Shown in pieces: positions 43,503-49,361 of a DNA stretch of 64,000 bases. The translations under genes and the position numbers were made by a program. Source of the DNA: Croceibacterium atlanticum (lineage in GTDB: Bacteria; Pseudomonadota; Alphaproteobacteria; Sphingomonadales; Sphingomonadaceae); contig NZ_CP011452.2 of NCBI RefSeq assembly GCF_001008165.2, positions 1,302,001 through 1,366,000 of the forward strand. The letters run 5' to 3'. Position 1 is the first letter of the stretch, and each line of letters opens with the position of its first letter. The notes beneath the pieces are model-generated. The model saw only the letters and a program-made list of their open reading frames with translations, made no database searches and was not told where the DNA came from.

Positions 43503-43909
43503 GATCAACTCCTGATTCGTTCTCGCAAACAAAATGAGAACAAATAAGGATCAGGTCAAGATCGTAAGGTGGCAATCCATGCACGCAATCAGGCAGGGCC
43601 ACCGCGCGGGGCGCCGCTGGATCAGGATTGGAGGGAATGGTCTTCGGGGAGGCGGGGCCGGGAGACTTGGGGGGGCCGGGTTCGACCCCGCCTCGTTCGA
43701 AGACTCGGGTACCGACAACATTGCATGGACCGTGCCACAATGCGCGAATGCCGGATCGCCGCACGAGACAATGGTTTCCACCATTTTAACACTTCTTAAT
43801 TTTGTCAAGAATTCCGACACAGAAGCGGATTTGGCCGGTCTTCGCTGGCCCTGCCCTGCGCCCTCCCCTATTGCGATAATCAAGGTCGCAACAATGCCGG
43901 AGAGGATTC
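43503..43909. other. Intergenic region with a long stem-loop, between the regulator and GST
   Basis: 407 bp with no gene. Near the regulator start is an inverted repeat GTTCTC-N11-GAGAAC (43519-43541). A long imperfect hairpin spans 43640-43704: outer arms GTCTTCG/CGAAGAC, inner arms GAGGCGGGG/CCCCGCCTC. Around 43785-43800 the DNA is A+T-rich and includes TTAA-N6-TTAA, one base short of the CtrA spacing. The GST promoter probably lies there. Confidence 0.5.
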
Positions 43910-45340: not shown

Positions 45341-46405
45341 CTACTCCGCAGAAGTGAGCTTGCGGCGGCGGCGCATGAACGCCAGGCCCGCCAGGCCAAG
45401 GCCGAGAAGGCCAAGCATCCCCGGTTCCGGAATTGGCGTGCCGCCAGAGCTTCCGCCCGGAGTATCCGGATAGTCGGGCGGATAATACCCGCCGGAATAT
45501 GTGCCGACATGCATCTCGCCATATTGGCCGAGACTGCCGAAAACCGCCGAACCCTGGATGTAGTTATAGGTCGTGGCCGATGCCTTGGGGGCAAGGACAG
45601 AACCGCCCCATGCCGTGCTGGCCGTCAGCCTTTCCGCTTCCGGAAAATTCCAGATGACGTTTTCGCCGAGATTGTTGGTACCGCCCAGGAAATTATCATC
45701 CAGCTTGATATTCTTGCCGCTGACATTGATGATCGCGGTATCGGCACCGTTCAGATTGAATTCGATTTCGCCAATGGAATTCAGATCGCTGGCGGCGATG
45801 TTGAACACCGCCGTCCCGTCTGCATCGGGCTGCGCATTGAACATGCCGCGATTGCCGGATTTGACGAAATCGCTGTTCGCCGCCTGCATGCTGAGATCGT
45901 AGGACAGGTTCTGCGTGCTGGTGCGGATGAAGCTTCCCTGCTGCTGCAGATCCTGGATGAATTGCGGATCGCTGCCGGCAAGGCCGGAATTGACCGTATT
46001 GGCGTTCACATTGGTGTTGCTAATGGACCCGCCCACCAGCACGGTCTGCGGATTGCCGTTGAGATTGAACCCGCTATCGACATTGCCGCCGATCACCGCG
46101 CCCGCGCCATTATTGAGGTTCTTGACCCCGCCAGTGACGTTGCCGACCACGGTCAGGCCAGCCTGGCCATTGGCCGAAGCCGGGATGGCGGCGATATTGT
46201 AGTTGGAGGAATTGCCGGTCAGATTCCCGCCGACAAAGGTGCGGCCTTCCACTTCCGAACTGGAATCGAGATCGCCCAGAACCACGAGATTCCATTCGCG
46301 CAGAATATCGATTCCGGCCGGAGTTTCGCCCACGGCCGGGCTGGCGCCAAACAGCGCGGCGGAGGCAGAAATGGCTGCCAGTATATGCGTGCGGCGCAAA
46401 CCCAT
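45341..46405 (-). CDS. PEP-CTERM protein with choice-of-anchor A domain
   Basis: A 354-residue secreted protein. A signal peptide (HILAAISASAALFGASPAVG) is followed by an Asn/Gly-rich beta-helix-like body (WNLVVLGDLDSSSEVEGRTF, NGNPQTVLVGGSI) of the choice-of-anchor A type. The C-terminus is a PEP-CTERM sorting signal: PIPEPGMLGLLGLGLAGLAF then MRRRRK. Such proteins are processed by exosortase and placed in the envelope or biofilm matrix; exosortase is not in this window. ATG 46405. Confidence 0.9.
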   Translation of the reverse strand: MGLRRTHILAAISASAALFGASPAVGETPAGIDILREWNLVVLGDLDSSSEVEGRTFVGGNLTGNSSNYNIAAIPASANGQAGLTVVGNVTGGVKNLNNGAGAVIGGNVDSGFNLNGNPQTVLVGGSISNTNVNANTVNSGLAGSDPQFIQDLQQQGSFIRTSTQNLSYDLSMQAANSDFVKSGNRGMFNAQPDADGTAVFNIAASDLNSIGEIEFNLNGADTAIINVSGKNIKLDDNFLGGTNNLGENVIWNFPEAERLTASTAWGGSVLAPKASATTYNYIQGSAVFGSLGQYGEMHVGTYSGGYYPPDYPDTPGGSSGGTPIPEPGMLGLLGLGLAGLAFMRRRRKLTSAE

Positions 46406-46566: not shown

Positions 46567-47331
46567 ATGGAAGCAGACACGGTCAGGATAGACGGCAAGG
46601 CGGGCGGCAAACGGGCCTTCCGCTATTTCGATTATGTCATGGCCGCCTTCGTCGCGATCCTTCTGCTGTCCAACGTGCTGGGCGCGGGCAAGGTCGCGGA
46701 AGTGGATTTGCCATTTGTGGGGCTCTGGCCTTTTGGCGCGGGGGTGCTGTTCTTCCCGATCTCCTACGTATTGGGGGACGTGCTGACGGAAGTGTATGGC
46801 TATGCCCATGCCCGCCGCTGCATCTGGGCAGGCTTTGTCGCCTTGTTGTTCATGGCCTTCATGTCATGGGTGGTGGTGGCGCTGCCCCCGGCGGCGAACT
46901 GGGGCAACCAGGCCGCTTACGAAGCGATTTTCGGCCAGGTGCCCCGCATCGTCTTCGCTTCCATCGCCGCCTTCTGGGCGGGGGAATTCGTGAATTCCTA
47001 TGTCCTTGCCAGGATGAAGATCTGGACGAAAGGCAAGGCGCTGTGGACCCGCACGATCGGTTCCACGATCGTGGGCCAGGGCGTGGACAGCGCGCTGTTC
47101 TACCCGCTGGCCTTTCTCTACGCCGATGGCTGGACAACGCAGCTGGTCATCACCGTGGCGCTGACCCAATGGGCGCTGAAGACCGGGTGGGAGGCGTTGC
47201 TGACGCCGGTCACTTATGCGGTTGTGGGATTTCTGAAGCGGCGCGAAGGGGTCGAAGTTTTCGACACGGGCACCGATTTTTCGCCCTTTGCGCGGGGCGG
47301 CAATGCGGCGGATGGCGCAATCGCGCCGTGA
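46567..47331 (+). CDS. Queuosine precursor transporter (YhhQ/VUT family)
   Basis: A 254-residue inner-membrane protein of the vitamin-uptake (ECF S-component-like) YhhQ family, which imports queuine precursors such as preQ0/preQ1. Conserved parts are LLSNVLGAGKVAEV, FPISYVLGDVLTEVYGY (diagnostic) and WTRTIGSTIVGQGVDSALFY. About six hydrophobic helices. ATG 46567. QueF, the preQ0 reductase, is encoded at 62.9 kb, so both salvage and synthesis steps are present. Confidence 0.92.
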   Translation: MEADTVRIDGKAGGKRAFRYFDYVMAAFVAILLLSNVLGAGKVAEVDLPFVGLWPFGAGVLFFPISYVLGDVLTEVYGYAHARRCIWAGFVALLFMAFMSWVVVALPPAANWGNQAAYEAIFGQVPRIVFASIAAFWAGEFVNSYVLARMKIWTKGKALWTRTIGSTIVGQGVDSALFYPLAFLYADGWTTQLVITVALTQWALKTGWEALLTPVTYAVVGFLKRREGVEVFDTGTDFSPFARGGNAADGAIAP

Positions 47332-47335
47332 CGGA

Positions 47336-47548
47336 TCAATCCGCCAGCAGCGCGATCACGAAATATATCAGGATGAAGCTTCCGAAGCCGATCAGCGTGC
47401 CTGCCACGAAGATCAGACGGACGATCATCGGATCGATATTGAAGTAATTGGCCAGGCCGGAGCAGACGCCGAGAAATTTGCCATTCGGTTTGTCGAGGCG
47501 GAATTTCCCCGGCGGTCCGCCGGCTGGCTTCCGGTCAAGCTGGCTCAT
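47336..47548 (-). CDS. PspC domain protein
   Basis: A 70-residue PspC-type membrane protein: cytoplasmic KFRLDKPNGKFLGVCSGLAN, then FNIDPMIVRLIFVAGTLIGF and a second hydrophobic stretch. The GVCSGLA...D..VR.iFv pattern is the PspC signature. In other bacteria PspC relays envelope stress. It overlaps the small gene upstream by ATGA, so it is the last member of a three-gene unit with the two micro-membrane proteins. No pspA/B in view. Confidence 0.88.
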   Translation of the reverse strand: MSQLDRKPAGGPPGKFRLDKPNGKFLGVCSGLANYFNIDPMIVRLIFVAGTLIGFGSFILIYFVIALLAD

Positions 47549-47667
47549 GCAAGAACTCCTGCAAAACTGTGGACCTGCGGCGCCGTGGCGAAGCTGCTGA
47601 CCAGCAGCGAAGCGGTGATGGCAATGGCACCGAAAGCGGCAAGTGCCCTGGAAGCGAATTCAGTCAT
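47545..47667 (-). CDS. 40-residue membrane peptide, paralogue A
   Basis: A 40-residue peptide starting MTEFASRALAAFG and continuing AIAITASLLVSSFATAPQ. It has one hydrophobic helix and a short polar end. It has AGGGA 8 nt before ATG 47667 and its stop overlaps the pspC-like start (ATGA), strong evidence for translation. It is clearly paralogous to the upstream 43-residue peptide (shared FAS[RK]A..A..GA.AITA.LLVSSFATAPQ). Unknown function. It could be a signal-peptide-like cleavable product or a single-pass membrane peptide. Confidence 0.75.
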   Translation of the reverse strand: MTEFASRALAAFGAIAITASLLVSSFATAPQVHSFAGVLA

Positions 47668-47715
47668 TTCAATTTTCCCTGTATATCTGTTTTGCGGCGG
47701 TTTGTCCGCCCCGGA

Positions 47716-47847
47716 TCAGGCGACTACGCCGACGACGGCCTGGAACTGCGGAGCGGTTGCGAAGCTGCTGACCAGGAGCGTGGCGGTGATGGCGAAGGCG
47801 CCGACAATTGCGAAAGCCTTCGAAGCGAACTGCGAATAAACGGTCAT
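47716..47847 (-). CDS. 43-residue membrane peptide, paralogue B
   Basis: A 43-residue peptide starting MTVYSQFASKAFAIVG, then AFAITATLLVSSFATAPQ and a hydrophobic end. ATG 47847 is preceded by AAGGGGA at about 7 nt. It is the first gene of the unit peptide B-peptide A-PspC. The tandem arrangement and near-identical core with paralogue A indicate a local duplication retained under selection. Family unknown. Confidence 0.75.
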   Translation of the reverse strand: MTVYSQFASKAFAIVGAFAITATLLVSSFATAPQFQAVVGVVA

Positions 47848-48071
47848 TTTAAGTCCCCTTGTGGTTTGTCTTGGCGGCTAATCCGCCGATGCCGGATACT
47901 TTGCACAAGCCGTGCCAGTTTGAAGAAACCGCAGATTTCCGCCATTCCTGAACGCGGCATGAAAAAGCGGATCAGCCCGCTCCGCTCAGTATTGGGATTT
48001 TTCACCAACTATCGGCAGGCGGGATTTCGGATGGTCTGATCGGGACGTTTGCCCTAGTCCTGCGCGCGCTC

Positions 48072-49160
48072 ATGGCGTTCGACCGGATCACTCTTTCCCA
48101 TTTTCGCAATCATGCCGCGAGCGCGCTCGACGGCACGGCCCATTTCAACCTGCTGGTGGGCGAAAACGGGGCGGGAAAGACCAATGTTCTGGAAGCCTTG
48201 TCGCTCTTTGCACCGGGCCGCGGATTGCGCCGCGCCTCGCTCGCGGAAATTGCCGGGGCCAGCGGGCCGGGCAATTTCGCGGTCAGCGCCCTGCTCTCCC
48301 CCGGCGATGGCGGCGATCCGGTGAAACTGGGCACGGGCACCCAGCCCCACCGCCCCGGACGCCGGATCGTGCAGGTGAACGGCGCCGATGCCAGCGCCGT
48401 CAGCCTGGGCGAATGGCTGGCCATGGGCTGGCTGACCCCCGCGATGGACCGGCTGTTTGCCGACAGCGCCGGGGCAAGGCGGCGATATATGGACCGGCTG
48501 GCCGTGGCGATCGAGCCTGGCCATGCCCGCCACGCCACACGCTATGAACAGGCCCTGCGCGAAAGGAACCGCCTGTTATCGGGCGAGGATGAGCCGGATC
48601 GCCGCTGGCTGGATTCGATAGAGGCGCAACTGGCTGAAACCGGATCGGCGCTGGCGCAAGGCCGCGCCCGTCTTGTCGCCCGTCTGACCGATGAACTGGC
48701 TCGTCTGCCCGATCAGCCCTTCGCCCGCCCGGCCCTGACCTATGCGGCCGGCGGCCCGGTGGATGAGGCGGAACTGGCCGGGGAATTGCAGCGCCAGCGC
48801 CGCCGCGAACGCGCCGCCCAGCGCACCCTGGTCGGCCCGCATCGGGACGAGCTGGACGTGACCATGGCCGGGAAGAACGCCCCCGCCGCCAGCTGCTCCA
48901 CGGGCGAGCAGAAGGCCATGCTGATCGCCATCACGCTGGCCCATTCGTCCCTGTCCGCCGCCGGCCGCCCCGGCCTGCTGCTGCTGGACGAAGTGGCCGC
49001 CCATCTCGACCCGATCCGCCGCGCTGCCCTGTTCGAGCGCCTGCGCGGCGGCGCCTCGCAAATCTGGCTGACCGGCACCGAACGCGCACCCTTCGCGGAG
49101 ATTGAGGGCGAGGCGGCCATCTGGCACGTGGCTGGGGGGATGGTGGAGCGGGTTGGGTAA
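48072..49160 (+). CDS. recF: DNA replication and repair protein RecF
   Basis: SMC-like ATPase of the RecFOR pathway that loads RecA at single-strand gaps. Walker A LLVGENGAGKTNVLEAL (about residues 28-44), signature CSTGEQKAMLIAITLAHS, Walker B LLLLDEVAAHLD and the FRNH start are all present. 362 residues. ATG 48072. It is not next to dnaN or gyrB here. Convergent with the tesA-like gene across a repeat array. Confidence 0.95.
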   Translation: MAFDRITLSHFRNHAASALDGTAHFNLLVGENGAGKTNVLEALSLFAPGRGLRRASLAEIAGASGPGNFAVSALLSPGDGGDPVKLGTGTQPHRPGRRIVQVNGADASAVSLGEWLAMGWLTPAMDRLFADSAGARRRYMDRLAVAIEPGHARHATRYEQALRERNRLLSGEDEPDRRWLDSIEAQLAETGSALAQGRARLVARLTDELARLPDQPFARPALTYAAGGPVDEAELAGELQRQRRRERAAQRTLVGPHRDELDVTMAGKNAPAASCSTGEQKAMLIAITLAHSSLSAAGRPGLLLLDEVAAHLDPIRRAALFERLRGGASQIWLTGTERAPFAEIEGEAAIWHVAGGMVERVG

Positions 49161-49171
49161 CGGTCCGGACT

Positions 49172-49314
49172 CGCTCGCCCGGAGCCGGTCGAAGGGCGCG
49201 TGCCCTGCGCGCATCCTTCGACAGGCTCAGGATGAGCGATCTTCGACAGGCTCAGGATGAGCGGGCTTCGACAGGCTCGGGATGAGCGAACTTCGAGAGG
49301 TTCGGGATGAGCAG
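49172..49314. repeat. Four tandem 25-bp repeats with an upstream inverted copy
   Basis: Units begin at 49216, 49241, 49266 and 49291, exactly 25 bp apart; the first three read CTTCGACAGGCTCAGGATGA or CTTCGACAGGCTCGGGATGA plus GCG.., the fourth CTTCGAGAGGTTCGGGATGA. A degenerate inverted copy lies at 49172-49195 (CGCTCGCCCGGAGCCGGTCG then AAGGG), so the region can also form a large hairpin between convergent recF and the tesA-like gene. Same family as copies at 23625 and 24555. Confidence 0.85.
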
Positions 49315-49361
49315 CTTCCTGAGGCCAGCAGGGGCGCTGAAACAGCCTGCGTCCTGAACGC

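Follow-up and report, generated by a model that had tools for sequence, protein, structure and literature searches.

A three-gene unit of Croceibacterium atlanticum, composed of two tandem micropeptide genes and a gene for a short PspC-domain protein, appears to form a PspF/sigma-54 envelope-stress operon that lies apart from pspF-pspABC. It is located in a window of 64,000 nucleotides (NZ_CP011452.2, positions 1,302,001 to 1,366,000 of the forward strand), which is the whole stretch of DNA analysed here. The peptides are proposed, with modest confidence, to act as effectors that seal or stabilise the membrane, together with the short PspC where it is present. The best reading of the loci compared is that they would often, not always, be paired with such a PspC. 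At the sequence level, the predicted regulation and translation of the operon are well supported. The proposal draws its sequence support from conservation and purifying selection, from the promoter with its enhancer, and from the topology bias, the copy number and the occurrence without PspC. Moreover, the peptides probably belong to the membrane-damage (phage-shock) emergency response, because the same type of switch controls the psp operon. Psp responses are widespread, and the peptide family was recorded here in 47 genera, its two members in the window matching no Pfam or NCBIfam model. Conserved and often amplified micropeptides behind what appears to be the same switch would offer a genetically simple test of the small members of the Psp system. 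Apart from PspA, B and C, such members have roles that one comparative study still calls unclear (PMC9239133).

The features of the unit are collected in Table 1. As claimed in the initial annotation, the two peptides of 43 and 40 residues are tandem paralogues with a nearly identical core, AITA(T/S)LLVSSFATAPQ; they are 65% identical and share 26 invariant columns. The coordinates likewise confirm the ATGA overlap between the second peptide gene and the start of pspC. A strong ribosome binding site had been assigned to each peptide. Read from the sequence, this holds for peptide 1 (AAGGGG), but the site of peptide 2 (AGGGA) is weaker; pspC is preceded by AGGAG. On the upstream side, recF (48072-49160) is divergent from the three genes, and on the downstream side a queuosine-precursor transporter gene (46567-47331) runs in the opposite direction. 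Since both neighbours are oriented otherwise, the two peptides and pspC stand as a separate unit. No Pfam or NCBIfam family, the PspG model included, matched either peptide at E<=1. The 70-residue protein scores 63.7 bits against PF04024 (cut-off 25) and fails the PspC equivalog TIGR02978 (56.2 bits, cut-off 104); it is classed only as a PspC-domain protein (PF04024). Elsewhere in the window, a protein with an ice-binding-like adhesive domain and a PEP-CTERM sorting signal is encoded at 45341-46405 on the minus strand, and several copies of a TTCGACAGGCTCAGGATGAGC-type element lie 3' of recF (49190-49320).

Table 1 Features of the peptide-PspC unit, with positions in the window
Feature	Position	Strand	Basis
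Micropeptide 1, 43 residues, one predicted membrane helix	47716..47847	minus	ORF list, profile, AlphaFold2
Micropeptide 2, 40 residues, paralogue of peptide 1, ATGA overlap with pspC	47545..47667	minus	ORF list, alignment
Short PspC-domain protein, 70 residues	47336..47548	minus	PF04024, E 1.4e-17
Predicted sigma-54 -24/-12 promoter TGGCACGGCTTGTGCA	47902..47917	minus	same site type in 74/74 peptide-PspC loci
Distal palindromic element with TTGGTGAAAAATCCCAA core, putative PspF enhancer (UAS)	47990..48015	minus	matrix score 29.9
Proximal conserved element tGGCGGAAATCTGCGGtttcttcaaac, adjoining the -24 region	47918..47945	minus	matrix score 29.8
Predicted 5' mRNA hairpin GGCGGATTAGCCGCC, just past the predicted transcript start (about 47891)	47873..47887	minus	leader folding

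The three-gene order is conserved well beyond this genome. Peptides precede a short PspC in at least 74 loci from 47 genera (by locus labels), and the lack of conservation named in the initial annotation as a refutation did not occur. The family sample consisted of 149 Sphingomonadaceae genomes. PspC was detected in 139 of them and PspA in 139, the same 10 genomes being devoid of either. As 90 PspC loci were read, the count of peptide-PspC loci (74/90) is a minimum. PspC in these 74 loci is 57-79 residues long. One peptide is present in 44 loci, two in 24, three in five and four in one, so that tandem copies occur in 30/74, and the last peptide gene overlaps pspC by the four bases ATGA in 57/74. 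Peptides are absent from 16 loci. PspC is long in 13 of these (119-143 residues from the match start), and the remaining three (L081, L086, L089) have a short PspC and no sigma-54 site. When a sigma-54 site lies within 700 nt 5' of PspC, peptides are found in all cases (74/74), compared with 0/16 in the loci without a site. The filter also matched once among these site-less loci (L095); the "peptide" there is itself a second PspC, and the row was dropped from the initial 75.

The peptide filter matched 74 times in the 74 regions between the sigma-54 site and PspC. In 30 rounds of dinucleotide shuffling the mean was 0.13 and the maximum 2, and the antisense strand gave 2; these regions were chosen for having peptides, a selection that affects the association of site and peptide less. 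With peptide 1 as query, plain BLAST reached only 9/149 family genomes, and the other relatives were recovered through the position of PspC and a profile. The alignment of pspC-linked peptides contains 47 of the 111 peptides, picked by hand. Profile matches at E<=0.01 were obtained in 88/149 family genomes; some are weak and lie just 5' of pspA (e.g., G010, G053, G072, G084, G140), so this number is not confined to pspC-linked peptides. A second set comprised the best 80 of 535 relatives, from named genomes, and overlaps with the 149-genome sample. Among these best 80, a sigma-54 site with peptides was present in 20 loci, from Tsuneonella, Croceibacterium, Altericroceibacterium, Actirhodobacter, Altererythrobacter, Erythrobacter, Qipengyuania, Pelagerythrobacter, Blastomonas, Citromicrobium, two Novosphingobium and some unclassified genomes. 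Within the same 80, the combination was not found at the PspC loci of Gammaproteobacteria (7), Bacteroidota (7) and one Clostridiales, nor with the short PspC of Polymorphobacter and Sandarakinorhabdus.

Codon-level purifying selection indicates that the peptides are probably translated. For the last peptide of 26 same-genus pairs, pN/pS was 0.47, with pN lower than pS in 26/26 and with 286, 177 and 476 differences at codon positions 1, 2 and 3. A lower value of 0.35 in 22 pairs is biased downwards, because these pairs were picked for 60% or more identity. Such selection bears on the idea that the peptides are translational leader ORFs, the translation of which only opens the downstream ribosome binding site and couples PspC or PspA output, the peptide itself being inert. 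The four-base overlap with pspC in 57 of the 74 last peptides fits a leader, but the residues themselves are under purifying selection and the genes occur in tandem. Furthermore, the C-terminal residue is A, V, I or L in 111/111 peptides (A in 86), and this type of residue is kept in copies that are not coupled: it is found in 37/37 peptides that are not last, which escape the ATGA constraint because they do not overlap pspC. Inert leaders are thus regarded as quite improbable.

The peptides would be oriented with the N-terminus inside. K or R is located before the hydrophobic stretch in 91/111 peptides and after it in 3/111. This placement leans towards an N-inside topology, though only 46 of the 111 have a net positive N-side (55 are neutral and 10 negative). 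For peptide 1, AlphaFold2 predicted helices at residues 3-30 and 35-42, with a mean pLDDT of 77.8.

The regulation of the operon can be read from its upstream region. A sigma-54 -24/-12 site is located 64-82 nt before the first ATG in 74/74 peptide-PspC loci, and an ungapped alignment anchored on this site yielded an upstream palindrome with the consensus CCAAAAGTTGGGGAAAATTCCCAA, together with a second conserved element next to the -24 box. The matrices for the distal and proximal elements were trained without both sites of the own genome. Scored on the distal matrix, the 13 sigma-54-like sites of this genome fall apart into the operon (29.9), pspA (18.2) and all others (2.4 at most), the 99% point of random positions being 5.7. 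One random position in this control reached 30.2, likely caused by a homologous promoter inside one of the two sampled stretches. For the proximal element, the operon scored 29.8 and the own pspA 23.6, and three other sites (L111, L113, L119) also exceeded the random 99% point. The bare sigma-54 pattern gave 13 sites in the genome versus nine for the reversed pattern. Because the bare pattern is near chance and the proximal element less specific, the case for a regulon rests on the distal element and on conservation. A further sigma-54-like site in the window (43722-43737, minus strand) was considered as a regulon member; it is without the enhancer and was not counted.

The distal element also extends to the psp operon of the family. 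Of 30 pspA promoters, 29 scored above 8 (the weakest 8.4; L134 is the one without a score), compared with 2.7% of random positions in those loci, and 21 lie within 1 nt of the same spacing. In the pspF-pspA intergenic region of E. coli, the best match contains TTAGTGTAATTCGCTAACT, which we take to be the known PspF site; its score of 13.1 is moderate (shuffles: 95% point 8.9, 99% point 14.7). As for the leader, its predicted fold has a stem of at least 5 bp near the start in 47/74 sequences, whereas shuffled leaders averaged 18.8 and never exceeded 34 over 200 rounds. A looser stem rule with simple shuffles gave 64/74 leaders versus 31. For 50 leaders aligned with MAFFT, RNAalifold returned no consensus pairs. 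The 5' hairpin is likely a real feature of the leader.

The genome encodes the proteins that such a switch would need. Family models identified pspF, pspA, pspB and pspC, with PspF at 468.5 bits (cut-off 443.55) and RpoN at 421.1 bits (cut-off 277.35). The separate PspC of the psp operon is 124 residues long and passes the TIGR02978 cut-off with 111.2 bits. The promoter of the own pspA carries the same two elements, distal and proximal. The earlier suggestion of an envelope-stress module finds good support here, as a sigma-54 promoter and a PspF-type enhancer appear to be common to the peptide operon and the psp operon; the promoter had gone unnoticed in the initial annotation. In 20 chosen genomes, the PspF equivalog exceeded its cut-off in 10/10 with psp and in 1/10 without (G082, 66% complete), and RpoN was present in 20/20. 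Moreover, the 10 genomes without PspA and PspC had no peptide profile match, compared with 88/149 overall (P = 8e-5, ignoring relatedness). We infer that the peptide operon answers to PspF specifically and not just to sigma-54. In addition, five further small ORFs lie 3' of the psp-operon pspC of this genome (L107:7599-9193, contig C1), two of which have weak, sub-cut-off PspB matches, giving an apparent array of PspB-like proteins.

Small ORFs are also a regular component of the psp operon. In the own genome, a 51-residue ORF with AGGAGG is situated between promoter and pspA, which it overlaps by ATGA. An ORF of 50-57 residues precedes pspA in 30/30 loci, the own included, and 29/30 end in alanine; 28 of the 30 peptides were aligned, L141 and L147 being left out. 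Comparing the profiles gave no support for common descent of the pspC-linked and pspA-linked peptides. At the corresponding position in G011 and G094 lies an ORF of 168-173 residues, with a signal-like N-terminus and a TonB-type C-terminal domain that exceeds the Pfam cut-off in G094 only (L204:798-1301, L205:739-1257).

Outside the family, the pattern changes. In a class-wide search, the pspC-linked profile matched 3/289 genomes, all Sphingomonadaceae. The pspA-linked profile matched 4/289, i.e., three Sphingomonadaceae and one weak match with an internal stop. The class-wide sample contained four Sphingomonadaceae genomes only, and the sensitivity of both searches is limited, because neither profile detected G091, which is one of these four. 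In other families of the order, pspA was found behind a sigma-54 site in 11 of 19 fetched loci, and in 10 of these 11 an ORF of 48-58 residues lies between the site and pspA (L164, L173, L175, L178, L179, L181, L183, L184, L186, L187). None of these 10 ORFs passes the hydrophobic filter, and this presence of a different, non-hydrophobic ORF before pspA in 10 of the 11 readable loci speaks for the leader explanation considered above. Eight of the 10 have an arginine-rich end, and the four that were scanned gave no meaningful Pfam match. YjiS, an arginine-rich small protein, co-purified with PspA in Salmonella, according to a passage of PMC11707872.

Related peptides occur without PspC as well. 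From profile matches away from PspC and pspA, 13 stretches were fetched, and a search for PspC in these 13 found none. In 10 of them (L190, L191, L192, L193, L194, L197, L198, L200, L206, L207), one or two peptides lie behind a sigma-54 site; eight of these ten exceed a score of 8 for the distal element, and L197 and L200 score poorly. The other three (L195, L196, L199) have no sigma-54 site by the search pattern; in L199, the peptide follows an imperfect sigma-54-like sequence. Two of the ten, as well as L195 and L196, are contig-end stretches. Where sequence remains, the next long ORF 3' of the peptides is in most cases encoded on the other strand (by inspection of ORFs, not gene calls), which makes these stretches look like peptide-only operons. 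Stretches in which the peptides have no evident downstream partner on their own strand are a further argument against leader ORFs. They also qualify the claim that the peptides work with PspC. The order of the genes is confirmed, but relatives of the peptides are found in stretches that lack PspC, and a similarly built micropeptide lies before pspA.

The peptides might instead be signal modulators that bind PspB/PspC or PspA within the membrane and tune the release of PspF as a feedback, much as sensors are tuned by several small membrane proteins, with no membrane protection of their own. Their position directly before pspA (30/30) and before the short pspC (74/90) agrees with this, as does a short PspC that keeps the PspC domain and falls below the equivalog cut-off for the full protein. 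Nevertheless, the two to four copies in 30/74 loci and the PspC-less stretches are no less compatible with a bulk effector, and modulation appears unlikely. Another explanation is that the peptides are membrane-active in the manner of YohP or type-I toxins, that they reduce the membrane potential or growth under stress, and that PspC buffers this effect. It draws on their size, single helix and tandem copies, and on YohP itself, which dissipates the potential while PspA and PspC rise (parts of PMC12719787). A toxin is very improbable, as peptides occur without a local PspC and their promoter ties them to a protective regulon.

The preferred reading, in which the peptides are sealing or stabilising effectors, can be arranged as a sequence of events. 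In E. coli, PspF is released from PspA when the inner membrane is damaged. The same damage would release PspF here, and PspF would bind the putative enhancer, about 73-98 nt 5' of the -24 element, and fire the sigma-54 polymerase. The resulting mRNA would start with the small hairpin, and the two peptides would be translated from their own ribosome binding sites, followed by PspC through coupling at ATGA. Each peptide is expected to insert as one inner-membrane helix, with the N-terminus inside and a short, mostly uncharged tail outside. The peptides would be abundant and dose-dependent, packing with each other and, if present, with the short PspC. The packed peptides may then stabilise or seal the stressed membrane, which is the most uncertain step; the lowering of membrane potential by YohP, a comparable E. 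coli peptide (PMC12719787), counts against it.

A broader proposal is possible, though more doubtful. In this view, a membrane micropeptide would be the first gene behind the psp-operon, short-pspC and stand-alone promoters, with up to four tandem copies and a conserved hydrophobic C-terminal end, most often alanine. Tentatively, the PspF regulon of Sphingomonadaceae could be built around micropeptides as main effectors beside PspA, with the hydrophobic C-terminal end serving as a periplasmic recognition or turnover signal. If true, the peptides, and not PspA alone, would be main effectors of the membrane-stress response in this family.

Comparative-genomics catalogues of Psp partners concern the same stress system and report variants with extra partners (passages of PMC11237479 and PMC9239133). 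The string "Sphingo" does not occur in the main texts of these two papers. The main text of PMC11237479 has 11 passages on peptides, none on such genes, and that of PMC9239133 has no peptide passage. No account of these peptides was found among the open-licence papers listed; an earlier regulon prediction elsewhere, e.g., in RegPrecise, subscription papers or supplements, is possible. With regard to the known components, the 70-residue protein has the PF04024 domain in common with PspC and misses the TIGR02978 equivalog cut-off, unlike the own PspC of 124 residues.

The PspG of enterobacteria is a small membrane protein, and the window peptides are about half its size. In E. coli, pspG lies outside the psp operon behind its own PspF/sigma-54 promoter and is the other known target of PspF (parts of PMC9239133 and PMC3709507). 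The window peptides resemble it as predicted small membrane proteins encoded outside the psp operon behind a promoter of the PspF/sigma-54 type. They differ in that they do not match the PspG model, have a single predicted membrane helix, are often tandem and are coupled to a gene for a PspC-domain protein. A second likeness is to YohP and similar small membrane proteins that E. coli induces under stress. These are single-helix peptides of fewer than 50 residues made on stress, as the window peptides would be. According to parts of PMC12719787, YohP lowers the membrane potential, and its production raises PspA and PspC. YohP acts upstream of Psp, whereas the window peptides sit behind a PspF-type promoter, and the likeness of the two concerns their design.
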